DNA from: Desulfoscipio geothermicus DSM 3669
GTDB lineage: Bacteria; Bacillota; Desulfotomaculia; Desulfotomaculales; Desulfallaceae
NCBI RefSeq assembly: GCF_900115975.1
Contig: NZ_FOYM01000030.1
Location: forward strand, 1-48,012
Length of the DNA: 48,012 bases
Direction: 5' to 3'
A program made the translations under genes and the position numbers. Positions within the stretch are counted from its first letter, which is position 1; each line of letters begins with the position of its first letter. Under the pieces are notes generated by a model. That model was not told the origin of the DNA and made no database searches. It saw only the letters and a list, made by a program, of their open reading frames with translations. Shown here in pieces: positions 8,578-35,460 of the stretch.

Positions 8578-11500
8578 ATGAAAATAACTGATTTTTCCAT
8601 TAAGCGCCCCCTGACCATCGCGGTGCTGGTTACCGTCGTCCTGATTCTCGGCGGCGTGTCCCTGAGCCGCCTGAACATCGACCTGTACCCGGAAATGAAC
8701 CTGCCGGTGGCGGTGGTTATGACCGAATATCCCGGCGCGGGGCCGCAGGAAGTGGAGAACATGATCACCCGCCCCCTGGAATCCATCCTGGGGACGGTGA
8801 GTGACCTGGACTCCATACAATCCGTTAGCTCCACGGGGTCATCAACGGTTATCGTTATGTTCAACTGGGGCACGGACATGAATTTCGCCGCCCTGCAGAT
8901 GCGGGAGAAGGTGGATATCATTAAATCCTTCTTCCCGGATGACGCCGGCAACCCCACCGTGTTTAAAATGGACCCCAACATGCTGCCCATTATGCAGATG
9001 TCGGTATCCGGCGGCGACCCGGTGCAGGTAAAGCAAGTTGCCGATGATGTCATCCAGCCCCGGCTGGAAAGGGTACCCGGCGTGGCCGCCGTGCGGGTGG
9101 AGGGCGGAGCGGAGCGGGAAATCAAGGTGCTGGCGGACCCCGCCCGTTTGCAGGGATACGGGTTCAGCTTGAATCAGATAGTGCAGGTATTGCAGGCGGA
9201 AAACATGAACATTTCCGGCGGGCATGTGGAGGAAGGCAAGAAAGACCTGCTGGTCCGGGCTACCGGCGAGTTTCGGGATCTGAATGACATCCGCAACCTG
9301 GTGCTTACCTCACCCACGGGAACCAGGGTGCACCTGGGCGACCTGGCAGAGGTGCTGGACGGCGCCAAGGAATCCACCAGCATCAGCCGGGTGAACGGCA
9401 AGCCCGGCCTGACTATATTGATCCACAAACAAAGCGTGGCCAATACCGTTCAGGTGGCCCGGGAAGTTAAAAAAGCTCTGCAGGATATTGAAAAAGATAT
9501 CCCGGCGGACTTTGAAATCGGCATATTGCTGGACCAGTCCGAGTTTATTGAGCAGTCCATCCAGAGCGTGGTGCACAAGATATTCTTCGGCGGCCTTTTG
9601 GCCATGCTGGTGATGCTGGTGTTTCTGCGCAACCTGCGCAGTACGTTGATAATTTCTACGGCCATTCCCATTTCCATTGTATTTACCTTCGTGCTCCTGT
9701 ATTTCAACGACATGACTTTGAACCTGTTCAGCCTGGGCGGTCTGGCGCTGGGTGTGGGCCTGATCGTGGACGACGCCATTGTGGTGCTGGAAAATATTTA
9801 CCGTCACCGCCAGCAGGGTTATTCCCGGATGGACGCGGCCCGTGTGGCCACCGATGAGGTGGGCAATGCGGTTATTGCTTCCACTCTAACCACCATAGCC
9901 GTATTCCTGCCCATTGTTTTTGTGGAAGGACTGGCCTCGCAGCTGTTCAAGCCCATGGCCCTGACGGTGTCGTTTTCCGTGGCGGCATCCCTGGCCGTGG
10001 CCCTGACCCTGGTGCCCCTTTTGGCGTCCAGGTTTCTAAAGCTGACCGAGACCGGGGAAGGCACATTTTCCGGCCGGGTATTCGGCGCCTCCGAGAGGTG
10101 GTTCGACCGGCTGCACCGGCGTTATGAAAAAATATTGGCCTGGTCCCTGGGGCACCGCAAACGGGTGATTATTGCCGTAGCGCTGCTATTTGTCGGCAGC
10201 CTGGCTCTGACTCCGCTGGTGGGCGCGGAATTCATGCCTGTTATGGACGAGGGTTACGTAAAGGTGCAGGTGGATATGCCCAACGGCACCGGCCTGGAAG
10301 AGACCGATCGCTGCATTGCGGTCATTGAGAAACTGGGCGAGCAAATCCCTGAAGTAAAAAATATCTATGCCAGCATTGGCTTTACCGGAAGCGAGAGTAT
10401 GGGCGGCGAAGTCAGCAGCGACCGGGGCCAGATATTTTTTGAGCTGGTGGACAAAGAACAGCGTAGCCGGAGCACGGAAGACGTGGCGGAAGAGATGCGC
10501 GATCTGGTGCGGGGCATCCCCGGCGCTGACATTAAAGTGTCCGCCACCGGTCCGGCCTCCGAGGGGCAGGGCATGGGCTCGCCGGTACAGGTGGATATAA
10601 AGGGGGACGACCTGGATACCCTCACCCGCCTGGCGGACGAAGTGACGGAGATAATTGAAAAGGTGCCCGGAACCAGGCAGGTTACCAATAACCTGGCGGA
10701 CGGCCTGCCGGAATTGCGGGTGCGGGTGGACCGGGAACGGGCCGCGCTTTACGGCCTGAGCGGCGCCGAGATTTCCTCCACGCTGCGCACCGCCATCCAG
10801 GGCACGGTGGCCACCCAGTACCGGACGGGTGAGGATGAAATTGACGTACGGGTGCAGCTGGCCAACGCTGAATCGGCCCGCATGGCGGATTTGCAAAACC
10901 TGACGGTGATGACCGGTACGGGAGTCGTAGTGCCGCTGCATGTGGTTACCGACATTATTGAGCGGGAGGCGCCCAGTTCCATCAACCGGCAGGACCAGAC
11001 GCGGATGGTATCCGTGACCGCCAACCTCAGCGGCCGGGACCTGGGCAGCGTGATGAAGGACATCCGGGCCCGGTTGGATCAACTGCCGCTGCCGCCGGGT
11101 TACTTCATCGAGTACGGCGGGCAGAACGAGGAAATGATGAAGGCTTTCGGCAACCTGGGCCTGGCGCTGATTCTGGCCATCGTACTGGTGTACCTGGTGA
11201 TGGTGGCGCAGTTCGAGTCGCTGCTGTACCCGTTTATAATTATGTTCTCCGTGCCCGTGACCATTATCGGCGTGGTGCTGAGCCTGCTGATGTCGGGCCG
11301 GCCCTTCAGCGTCCCCGCATTCATCGGCATTATCCTGCTGGCCGGCATTGTGGTGAAAAACGCCATCGTGCTGGTAGACTACGTCAACGTGCTGCGTCGC
11401 CGGGGCGTGGAGCGCAACGAGGCCATTTTAAAGGCGGGTCCCACCCGTTTGCGGCCCATTTTGATGACGGCCCTGACGGCTGTTCTGGCCATGCTGCCCA

Positions 11501-32976: not shown

Positions 32977-33291
32977 ATGTCTATAAAGGTTGGTGGGTAT
33001 ACGTTTGAAGGACCGTATTCATCAACGAACAGCTTGGAGGACAGGTCGGGCGTTTATGCAATTTTGTGTACTACGGGCGATGCAAACACTTATTCCTTGA
33101 TTGATGTCGGGGAATCTTCGGAAGTGAAAACCAGGGTGGAGAATCATGACCGCGCGGGTTGCTGGAGTGAAAATTGTTTAAATACCTTAAGATGCGCAGT
33201 TTATTATACCCCGCATAAACAGCAAGCGGGTCGTAAGGAAATTGAACAAGAGATACGCGACAAATATAGTATTCCTTGCGGCGAAAGGTAA
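32977..33291 (+). CDS. Small GIY-YIG-like protein
   Basis: A 104-residue protein with AGGAG eight bases before the ATG. The succession GVYAIL, then LIDVGESSEVKTRVENHDRAGCW, and a late Glu in KEIEQEI fits a single GIY-YIG nuclease-like fold (first strand GVY, second strand IDVG, then Arg and Glu). No other domain is attached. The family of free-standing small GIY-YIG-like proteins is poorly characterised. It is 65 bases upstream of the membrane-protein/graspetide operon and could be part of it or an unrelated passenger in this inserted block. Confidence 0.6.
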   Translation: MSIKVGGYTFEGPYSSTNSLEDRSGVYAILCTTGDANTYSLIDVGESSEVKTRVENHDRAGCWSENCLNTLRCAVYYTPHKQQAGRKEIEQEIRDKYSIPCGER

Positions 33292-33355: not shown

Positions 33356-34000
33356 ATGCCGAAGCTAACCAGGATAATTAAAAATATTGGACAACTGTTT
33401 TGGCCTTTTCTCGAAGGTGAAGTCAAACCGGATACAACTATTTATACCTGCGAAAAAAGGATGTTGCAGGAAATTGAAAATATACAAGATGTTCCATTGC
33501 TTAATCAATTTGCTTCCATGGCTGAAAAACTATACCTGGAAGAAAAAGAGCGCTTACAAACCGTAGAAGGAAAGGGAGCAACCTTTTTAGGAACATCCGG
33601 ATTTGCAGCAACACTGCTTATTTGGTTGGCTCAAATTGTAGTTGATAAAAGTTTTTTTAAAAATGATTGCTGGTTTTCAATCATGATCTTGACATTATAT
33701 ATAGCCACACAGGTTTATTTCTTGAGAACCATTTATCTTTCAGCACGGTGCCTGTCGCGTCGGGGATACCGTGCCATAGACAGAAGAATAGTTTTACCGG
33801 ATTCCGGTATTAACCAAAGCCAATATTTGAAAAGGTTGGCTGTAATGTATGTGGCCAATTATTCTCATAATCGCAGGGTGACCAATGAAAAAACGGATTT
33901 GGTGGCTCTGGCGCAGGAAAATTTTATGCGGGCTGTTATCTGCATTGGAGTTATAGGAATATTTTTCATTGCCCAGAAGGCTTTTGCTCAATTAGTTTAA
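33356..34000 (+). CDS. Three-TM membrane protein in the graspetide operon
   Basis: A 214-residue protein I cannot assign to a family. Soluble helical residues ~25-75 (EIENIQDVPLLNQFASMAEKLYLEEKERLQ) lead into two adjacent membrane helices (about 80-97 and 105-125). A basic cytoplasmic stretch (SARCLSRRGYRAIDRR) follows, and a third helix (~190-210) lies at the C-terminus. The pre-TM helix plus two-TM hairpin is reminiscent of SLATT-like 2TM effectors, but only loosely. The gene ends 21 bases before the first precursor gene, with an unbroken operon after it. A role in export, localisation or immunity for the peptide is therefore plausible. GAGG lies a few bases before the ATG. Confidence 0.65.
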   Translation: MPKLTRIIKNIGQLFWPFLEGEVKPDTTIYTCEKRMLQEIENIQDVPLLNQFASMAEKLYLEEKERLQTVEGKGATFLGTSGFAATLLIWLAQIVVDKSFFKNDCWFSIMILTLYIATQVYFLRTIYLSARCLSRRGYRAIDRRIVLPDSGINQSQYLKRLAVMYVANYSHNRRVTNEKTDLVALAQENFMRAVICIGVIGIFFIAQKAFAQLV

Positions 34001-34021: not shown

Positions 34022-34261
34022 ATGCCGCGCCCGTTTATCGCCATGTTTGCGTCGCCGGTGGAGCAGGAGTGCATAAATCTTAAATATGATTATGGGAAAG
34101 ATATTTCGGTAACAGGTGATAATCAACCAATTATTTCAGTCAATTATCCGTGCAATGAATTGTTGACAAAAACAGAAGTTCAAAGGGAAGATGACGATGA
34201 TGCTTTCGATTTTCTGACGAAAACAAAAGTTGAACGGGAAGATGACGACGATTATTTTTAG
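34022..34261 (+). CDS. Graspetide-type precursor peptide 1, two core repeats
   Basis: A 79-residue peptide with AGGGGG five bases before the ATG. Near the N-terminus is PFIAMFASP (residues 4-12), which resembles the PFFARFL leader motif recognised by microviridin-type ATP-grasp enzymes. The C-terminal third holds two near-identical repeats with a 17-residue period: LTKTEVQREDDDDAFD (48-63) and LTKTKVEREDDDDYF (65-79). Each offers two Thr donors (49/51, 66/68) and a Glu-Asp cluster as acceptors, the pattern expected for omega-ester (possibly also amide) crosslinks. The acidic tail ends the protein. The genes for precursor 2 and the ATP-grasp enzyme follow immediately. Confidence 0.8.
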   Translation: MPRPFIAMFASPVEQECINLKYDYGKDISVTGDNQPIISVNYPCNELLTKTEVQREDDDDAFDFLTKTKVEREDDDDYF

Positions 34262-34274
34262 GGAGGCACTTGGC

Positions 34275-34481
34275 ATGAACGTATTTATTGGCCAGTTTGC
34301 GGAAGCACTGCAAAAAAAACACTGTTTTTTTTCTTATTCGGAAGCCAAAGAAGTTAATGTTAACAGCGATGACCCAGAAAAAATATTTATCCTCACCGAT
34401 ACGGCGGAGGCCGAGCTGTTAACTAAAACATTTGTTGAAAGAGAAGACGACGATGAAGGTTTCGATGACTTATACCGGTAG
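34275..34481 (+). CDS. Graspetide-type precursor peptide 2, single core
   Basis: A 68-residue peptide; ATG 34275 is fixed by GGGAGG eight bases upstream. FIGQFAEAL at residues 4-12 parallels the PFIAMFASP segment of precursor 1 and is probably the leader recognition element. The C-terminus carries a single core, LTKTFVEREDDDEGFDDLYR (49-68), matching the precursor 1 repeats at the Thr-Lys-Thr and Arg-Glu-Asp-Asp-Asp positions. The middle part is unrelated to precursor 1. Its coding sequence overlaps the ATP-grasp gene by about 17 bases, so production of substrate and enzyme is coupled. Confidence 0.8.
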   Translation: MNVFIGQFAEALQKKHCFFSYSEAKEVNVNSDDPEKIFILTDTAEAELLTKTFVEREDDDEGFDDLYR

Positions 34482-35460
34482 GGATTTAATTTTGCTCCTA
34501 ACCAACAAGGAGGATCTTACTGCCGATTTTGTTGTGTTGGAATTGCAAAAGCGAAATATACCCTATTTCAGGTTTAATACCGAGGATTTCCCTTATAAAA
34601 TAAAGGCCGGGATTTCGTGCCGCAACAGCTTGGTAAACGGTTATATTGACGACGGAAAGAATATCATTGATCTAAAAGGGGTTAAAAGCATCTGGTATAG
34701 AAGGCCAAAACGGGCAGTTCCGGGCGAAAATATTAATAACGAATTTGAGCGTTTTTGTAGAATGGAATCTTGGTATTTTCTCCGTGGACTGTGGGAAAAT
34801 ATCGACTGCTTCTGGGTCAGCCACCCCTATAATTTGGAAAAAGCGAGGAGCAAGATTAGACAGTTGGCTGTTGCGCAACAAATCGGGTTGAAAATTCCAG
34901 ATACCCTGGTATCCAACAACCCGTCGGAAGTAAAACGTTTTTTTGAAGAATTGAAGGGGGAAATGGTGGTCAAGCCGGTACGGTCGGGGCTTGTACGGGG
35001 AGATGTGAAAGATTATGTTATTTATACAAGTAAAGTCTCGGTTGAGCATTTGGAAAAATTGGACGGCCTGAAGTTTGCCCCTTCTATTTTCCAGGCGTGC
35101 ATCCCTAAAAAATATGACATCAGGGTAACCGTTATCGGTGAAAAAGTTTTTCCGGTGGAAATCCATTCTCAAAGTAACCCGGAAGCTGTAATTGATTGGA
35201 GAAAACCTCAGGATGTGAAGCTGGAACACCGGGTCCATGACCTCCCTGTTGAAATAAAAACAAAATGTTTGCAACTTGTAAAGTTTTATGGTATCCAATT
35301 TGCGGCTATTGACTTGGTTCTCTCCAGGGACGGTAAGTATTATTTTCTTGAACTGAACCCAAACGGCCAGTGGGCCTGGATAGAACAGAGAACTGGTATA
35401 CCACTAACGGAGAGTTTGGTTGATTTGTTAGTTAATCTTGACTCTGACGCGTGTAAGTGA
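34465..35460 (+). CDS. ATP-grasp ligase of the MvdC/MvdD (graspetide) family
   Basis: About 331 residues from ATG 34465 (GAAGG five bases upstream; ATG 34453 is an alternative). The start DLILLLTNKEDLTADFVVLELQ, then FRFNTEDFP, is the pre-ATP-grasp domain typical of MvdD-like maturases. WYRRP and HPYNLEKARSKIRQLAVAQQIGLKIPDTLVSN follow. The ATP-grasp core has MVVKPVRSG, DIRVTVIG and the Mg-binding ELNPNGQW. These enzymes phosphorylate Asp/Glu side chains and join them to Thr/Ser (ester) or Lys (amide) of a precursor peptide. Two such precursors lie immediately upstream, one of them overlapping. No separate second ligase is present. Confidence 0.88.
   Translation: MTYTGRDLILLLTNKEDLTADFVVLELQKRNIPYFRFNTEDFPYKIKAGISCRNSLVNGYIDDGKNIIDLKGVKSIWYRRPKRAVPGENINNEFERFCRMESWYFLRGLWENIDCFWVSHPYNLEKARSKIRQLAVAQQIGLKIPDTLVSNNPSEVKRFFEELKGEMVVKPVRSGLVRGDVKDYVIYTSKVSVEHLEKLDGLKFAPSIFQACIPKKYDIRVTVIGEKVFPVEIHSQSNPEAVIDWRKPQDVKLEHRVHDLPVEIKTKCLQLVKFYGIQFAAIDLVLSRDGKYYFLELNPNGQWAWIEQRTGIPLTESLVDLLVNLDSDACK

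Follow-up and report, generated by a model that had tools for sequence, protein, structure and literature searches.

The window, by which we mean the whole 48,012-nucleotide stretch of Desulfoscipio geothermicus DNA analysed here, carries a graspetide locus of a known kind, with repeated cores and related to thuringinin. Its three core modules are split over two precursor genes, which is unusual for this kind, and homologous loci reveal a new point: the residue directly after the second threonine of each module, termed x4, is almost never repeated inside one precursor. A literature search of titles and abstract openings returned no earlier report of such a no-repeat rule among the matches listed, and a search with the motif strings gave no occurrence, only the word thuringinin being matched. 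The natural role and the targets of graspetides are described as largely open (PMC9826346). A strict and position-specific rule found in loci from several bacterial phyla hints at the purpose of the repeats and points to one residue.

Two precursors and their ligase

Both precursors lie on the forward strand. P1 (34022–34261, 79 residues) has a leader of about residues 1–46 followed by two core modules, P1a (LTKTEVQREDDDD, 34163–34201) and P1b (LTKTKVEREDDDD, 34214–34252), with a period of exactly 17 residues. P2 (34275–34481) has 68 residues when counted from the ATG at 34275, the mechanical open reading frame (ORF) starting at a TTG upstream of it, and joins a leader of about residues 1–46 to a single module (LTKTFVEREDDDE, 34419–34457). 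The initial annotation had described three modules over two precursors with a period of 17 in P1, and this is confirmed as it was written. Residue x4 is Glu in P1a (34175–34177), Lys in P1b (34226–34228) and Phe in P2 (34431–34433), an E, K, F set shared out between the two genes, as though these jointly replaced one three-module precursor. Among six-frame ORFs of the window with at least 40 codons, the pattern T.T.{4}E.DD matches these three modules only, and a search of the organism's own genome (3.65 Mb) with P1 at E up to 10 reported, besides P1 itself, only P2.

The arrangement shows features of the class, with small precursors adjoining the ligase, a leader followed by a core, and Ser/Thr/Lys donors ahead of Asp/Glu acceptors; the precursor set also has multiple Thr-Glu-Asp core repeats, a feature of the thuringinin type. 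Against a profile of 63 family leaders the P1 leader scores 13.3 bits, its own 1,000 shuffles peaking at 5.6. The P2 leader scores 7.3 bits against shuffles peaking at 3.8 (again 1,000), a weak match given that a shuffled leader of a relative, L109, likewise scored 7.3 bits. Recent DNA duplication was considered as a cause of the likeness between modules and is ruled out by the codon differences: P1a and P1b differ by four synonymous and two non-synonymous changes in 13 codons, and between P1b and its positional counterpart in L109 there are seven synonymous and two non-synonymous changes.

The ATP-grasp graspetide synthetase follows on the same strand (34432–35460). Its mechanical ORF begins at TTG 34432 and overlaps the end of P2, and an in-frame ATG at 34453 or 34465 is the likelier start. 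The best NCBIfam matches are TIGR04187 (4.3e-85; 285.7 bits against a cut-off of 350), MvdC (2e-70) and MvdD (6e-70), all below the NCBI curated cut-offs. The MvdD pre-ATP-grasp domain PF21068 passes its gathering score of 27 with 61.1 bits (1.4e-16), and the solved ligases 5ig9, 5ig8, 7m4s (AMdnB) and 7mgv (CdnC) align over nearly the whole length of the protein. These matches assign the ligase to the MvdC/MvdD/TIGR04187 kind, complete with an MvdD pre-ATP-grasp domain.

Conservation of the core module

A scan with the ligase only gave 167 relatives, and the best 80 of these 167 loci were kept with flanking sequence of at most 5 kb per side. Candidate precursor ORFs were picked by position alone, with an end between −200 and +60 relative to the ligase match, which yielded 136 ORFs covering all 80 loci. 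In these position-picked ORFs directly upstream of the ligase, T.T.{4}E.DD is present in 68 of the 80 loci (179 matches), and no match occurs among 5,537 ORFs taken from these loci as background (479,343 residues). The motif is not a product of chance.

Modules anchored on TKT (n = 161) keep E8 in 149, D10 in 149 and D11 in 151, and modules anchored on E.DD (n = 189) keep T1 in 170, T3 in 177 and K2 in 156. As the acids are conserved under the first anchoring and the Thr positions under the second, the module can be written T1-x-T3-x4-E8-x-D10-D11. The expectation that Thr-x-Thr would be invariant among homologues is therefore largely borne out. A conserved acid run, also expected, holds for E8, D10 and D11, which are near-invariant, and fails for x9 and position 12, which are acidic in only 20 and 70 of the 161 TKT-anchored modules. 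Position x9 is Ser or Arg in more than half of these modules; in the window it is Asp, which produces the EDDDD run, and an acidic x9 is a minority feature common to the window, L109 and L110. Arginine at x7 had been named as a kept residue, and an invariant role for it is ruled out by the family-wide count of 23 in 161. It characterises the window clade, with 15 of 17 distinct modules, and a minor group of Bacillota, with 7 of 7; in the remaining modules Gln (35) and Val (21) are commonest and Arg occurs in 12 of 120. In loci of other ligase lineages (L005, L028, L041, L058, L060 and L075) the acids stand at ExxDxD and not at ExDD.

Non-repetition at x4

With precursors thinned to at most 60% similarity and P1 and P2 of the window pooled, 47 precursors with at least two modules contain no x4 identity at all, and none of 2,000 shuffles was as low. 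In the same precursors likeness at x2, x5 and x6 is at the level of the shuffles, and at x7 and x9 it is above that level; the x4 pattern emerged from this inspection of six positions and was not predicted in advance. Once further genomes, plasmids and viral contigs were added, 71 distinct module sets (239 pairs) held one x4 repeat, in L032. The initial annotation had taken the spacers as variable, and variable they are, though not simply free, x4 differing among all modules in 70 of the 71 sets. After thinning to 46 sets (144 pairs) there are no x4 identities against 17.6 expected, or 15.6 with module order kept, and 0 of 2,000 shuffles were as low in either mode; under the plain shuffle all positions other than x4 are at or above expectation.

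Other ways of thinning were also applied, each of which removes relatedness only in part. With ligases less than 60% identical, 36 precursors give 0 of 103 identical x4 pairs (12.5 expected; 0 of 5,000 shuffles as low), x7 and x9 again being more alike within precursors than chance. Below 50% identity 18 precursors give 0 of 46 (6.2 expected; 1 of 5,000), and below 45% nine precursors give 0 of 21 (2.5 expected; 266 of 5,000). Without thinning, 1 of 226 pairs from 65 precursors is identical, with 25.9 expected. Thinning on module strings leaves 18 sets with none identical and 6.2 expected; harder thinning of this sort leaves six sets, where 187 of 3,000 shuffles were as low, and then four, where 1,295 of 3,000 were. 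Because the module pattern fixes the Thr and acid positions, it may overlook degenerate modules; with TKT as the only anchor the result is the same, with one true repeat (L032) in 54 sets and 176 pairs, a second candidate in L133 being out of register. Fresh genomes contributed five precursors flagged as new, with no repeats (the modules of one, L132, are the same as those of L079), and viral contigs four further precursors, likewise with none. Two of six precursors with at least two modules from the ExxDxD loci, which belong to other ligase lineages, do carry a repeated x4, and this counts against reading x4 as a protease key.

A basic, an acidic and a hydrophobic x4 occur together in 17 of 35 precursors with at least three modules, against 6.1 expected (0 of 5,000 shuffles). 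In microviridin J, position 5, next to Thr4, is reported to fill the S1 pocket of trypsin, and in microviridin L swaps at position 5 are reported to change the preferred protease (PMC7823629). We liken x4 to this position since both come right after a donor threonine, presumed in the case of x4. By this analogy we tentatively propose that x4 sets specificity, with each module aimed at a different target, so that a precursor would give rise to a multispecific set of inhibitors rather than to copies of one. It is equally possible, if short of probable, that selection forbids the same x4 in two modules and that the family as a whole makes panels of ring-locked inhibitors, each keyed by a P1-like residue. 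Such a role would explain why one spacer position alone stays different. If so, the E/K/F set of the window would be directed at Glu-, Lys/Arg- and aromatic-cleaving serine proteases, and loci of this kind would offer natural templates for multispecific cyclic inhibitors.

The modules may instead be cross-linked with x4 differing for reasons other than a target, either the sorting of modules by the ligase or the loss of identical neighbours through recombination, an explanation that we consider rather doubtful. In its favour, only identity is avoided: among 18 thinned precursors the similar but different pairs K/R and D/E were seen eight times against 8.0 expected, whereas a P1-like residue predicts that such pairs be avoided as redundant, and the absence of depletion counts against that reading. 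Recombination, however, should affect all positions, and x7, x9 and several flanks are more alike than shuffled, while sorting by the ligase would presumably not need so many different residues.

Predicted cross-links and comparison with known graspetides

The core motif of thuringinin is TxxTxxxExxDxD and that of plesiocin TTxxxxEE. Graspetide groups 3, 5 and 6, thuringinin and its kin, reportedly belong to the scheme of Lee et al. 2020. The window differs from thuringinin in its core spacing, TxTx4ExDD, in the splitting of its modules over two genes and in the acid run EDDDD. Precursors of cluster 13 are described as carrying repeats of groups 3, 5 or 6, and thuringinin kin have in common with the window their Thr/Glu/Asp repeat cores, an ATP-grasp ligase and an uncharacterised membrane protein alongside (PMC8939145). 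Plesiocin (group 2), with tandem modules reported to bear two esters each (PMC12291112) and a potency reported to rise with module number (PMC13097080), shares the tandem modules and differs in core motif, no TTxxxxEE-type repeats being present in P1 or P2. Neither precursor contains the TxKxPSD-type core or the PFFARFL leader described for microviridins (group 1; PMC7823629). The same absence separates them from AMdnA/AMdnC of Anabaena, which has a microviridin-type core and leader; both systems pair one ligase with several cores, and in Anabaena up to two macrolactones are reported on each of three cores, borne on one chain and processed independently (PMC5934393).

In this class the ligase is reported to phosphorylate a side-chain carboxylate, which is then attacked by Ser, Thr or Lys (PMC13097080), and thuringinin is described as a trivalent compound in which every repeat bears two ester links (PMC12291112). 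We consider it highly probable that the locus is a graspetide cassette. The ligase would bind the leaders of P1 and P2 and, driven by ATP, couple Thr1 and Thr3 through their side chains to a pair of acids out of E8, D10 and D11, each module losing two waters and closing into one small bicyclic unit, so that P1 would bear two such units and P2 one. That the links are esters, and that there are two per module, is plausible by analogy with thuringinin and AMdnA, and independent macrocycle units fit the reports on both. On the same model the genes, split two plus one, would stand in for the single three-module precursor most often found in relatives, and the products would act as protease inhibitors.

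Four or five acidic residues per core had been proposed as potential acceptors. Across the family the conserved acids opposite the two donors number only three, since those at x9 and position 12 are not conserved. The surplus acid could be taken up by a third link, a lactam from Lys2, with a loss of three waters per module, six on P1 and three on P2. This would suit a T-K-T that faces three near-invariant acids and the presence of Lys2 in 156 of 189 E.DD-anchored modules, and microviridin offers a known case of a Lys-Glu amide (PMC8939145). We nevertheless think a third link distinctly unlikely. Each repeat of thuringinin reportedly carries two esters (PMC12291112), and 23 modules (22 distinct) lack Lys or Arg at x2 and yet retain E8, D10 and D11, 16 of the 23 having no Lys anywhere in the 11-mer. 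These modules make a Lys lactam an unlikely reason for the third acid, and Lys2 as its needed partner is ruled out family-wide, though it may play this part in the window itself. All three acids are present in 24 of 102 TxT matches in which x is not Lys, against 144 of 156 TKT matches, a comparison that does not by itself decide the role of Lys2, as the 102 include many non-modules (56 lack all the acids). That no peptide product is made, the repeats being a metal-binding stretch or an acidic tail served by a RimK-like glutamate ligase, is highly improbable: the C-termini are acid-rich and the ligase matches TIGR00768 (1.1e-18) and PF08443 (5.8e-08), but it carries the MvdD pre-ATP-grasp domain and matches graspetide ligases far more strongly, the Thr positions are as conserved as the acids, and the leaders are conserved.

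The membrane protein beside the cassette

Just upstream of P1 a small helical membrane protein of an unnamed family is encoded on the forward strand (33356–34000, 214 residues). A profile built from the proteins of the window, L109 and L110 and then iterated matches a same-strand ORF downstream of the ligase in 77 of the 80 loci. The protein is present in 67 of the 68 module-bearing loci, the exception (L071) ending at the ligase, and in 10 of the 12 module-less loci. In the window and in L109 its gene is on the upstream side, not downstream as in the 77 loci. The window protein is matched in three genomes among 398 from its phylum (the window's own, G385 and G344), and these same three are the best ligase matches in the phylum.

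PADLOC, Pfam and NCBIfam give no family for the window protein, or match far below cut-off, and three relatives together with 49 aligned members show scattered weak family matches, DUF2207_C being commonest (12 of 49). The AlphaFold model is all-helical with a mean pLDDT of 91.7. Foldseek with this model against the PDB returned no hit at E below 0.001 (best 0.23), and the best VIA-align match was NINJ1 (Z 10.3, rmsd 3.1, 110 residues); we claim no fold, as this Z is below the level that VIA-align calls meaningful for helical bundles. Cluster 18 is described as a set of uncharacterised membrane proteins that occur specifically in thuringinin loci and are suspected of transport (Makarova et al. 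2022, PMC8939145). The window protein, which we set beside cluster 18 by description, probably belongs to that family, and it may export or anchor the peptide or the ligase. In L006 (5949–7634) the membrane protein lies inside a 562-residue ORF with an extra C-terminal region.

Distribution and genomic setting

In a ligase tree of 89 rows the window pairs with L109 (support 100/99, 65% ligase identity), which belongs to another family of the same phylum, and L110, L006 and L002–L004 join these two next (seven rows, 99/86). L109 has the gene order of the window: a membrane protein, a two-module P1 with REDDDD cores, and then a P2-like stretch (about 9500–9710) whose core (TKTFVDREEDND) is out of frame with its leader. 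One acid position of that core is changed, with DN for DD. The stretch is perhaps a decaying second precursor or else a sequencing error. In L110 one long ORF reads as two leader-plus-core units. The two-gene layout of the window is unusual in that the 68 homologous loci with modules all keep them in a single ORF per locus; the commonest module count per precursor is three (28 of 67, including a few out-of-register overlaps).

At E up to 0.001 the ligase is matched in 26 of the 398 genomes of the phylum and, among 16 genomes searched in the window's family, in the window's own only. Given this last count, the cassette has a patchy distribution and is probably passed between lineages. Four of 11 ligase-bearing loci on IMG/VR viral contigs (L142, L143, L145 and L146) carry the same TKT modules, which suggests that the cassette may travel on prophage-like elements. 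Plasmid records comprise 88 with mostly distant ligases and five with ligases close to a Sphingomonas ligase, and modules were found in both of the two examined.

The cassette is set in a surface-glycan locus (25782–47864). Pfam names a sulfotransferase (PF13469) and one family 2 glycosyltransferase; dTDP-sugar, UDP-sugar dehydrogenase-like, epimerase-like, flippase-like and further glycosyltransferase genes were read from their sequence only. Relatives of these glycan genes surround L109 (the same locus as L082) and L110, and others are found at the remote ATP-grasp locus L099, but there are none in the 80 best ligase loci with their flanks of up to 5 kb per side. Their proximity may reflect either function or a shared insertion hotspot. 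Pfam and NCBIfam scans of the neighbours gave no protease and no known transporter. A 104-residue protein at 32977–33291 has a weak PADLOC match to PDC-S14 (1e-4) and no Pfam name, and presumably resembles a GIY-YIG domain, to judge by eye.
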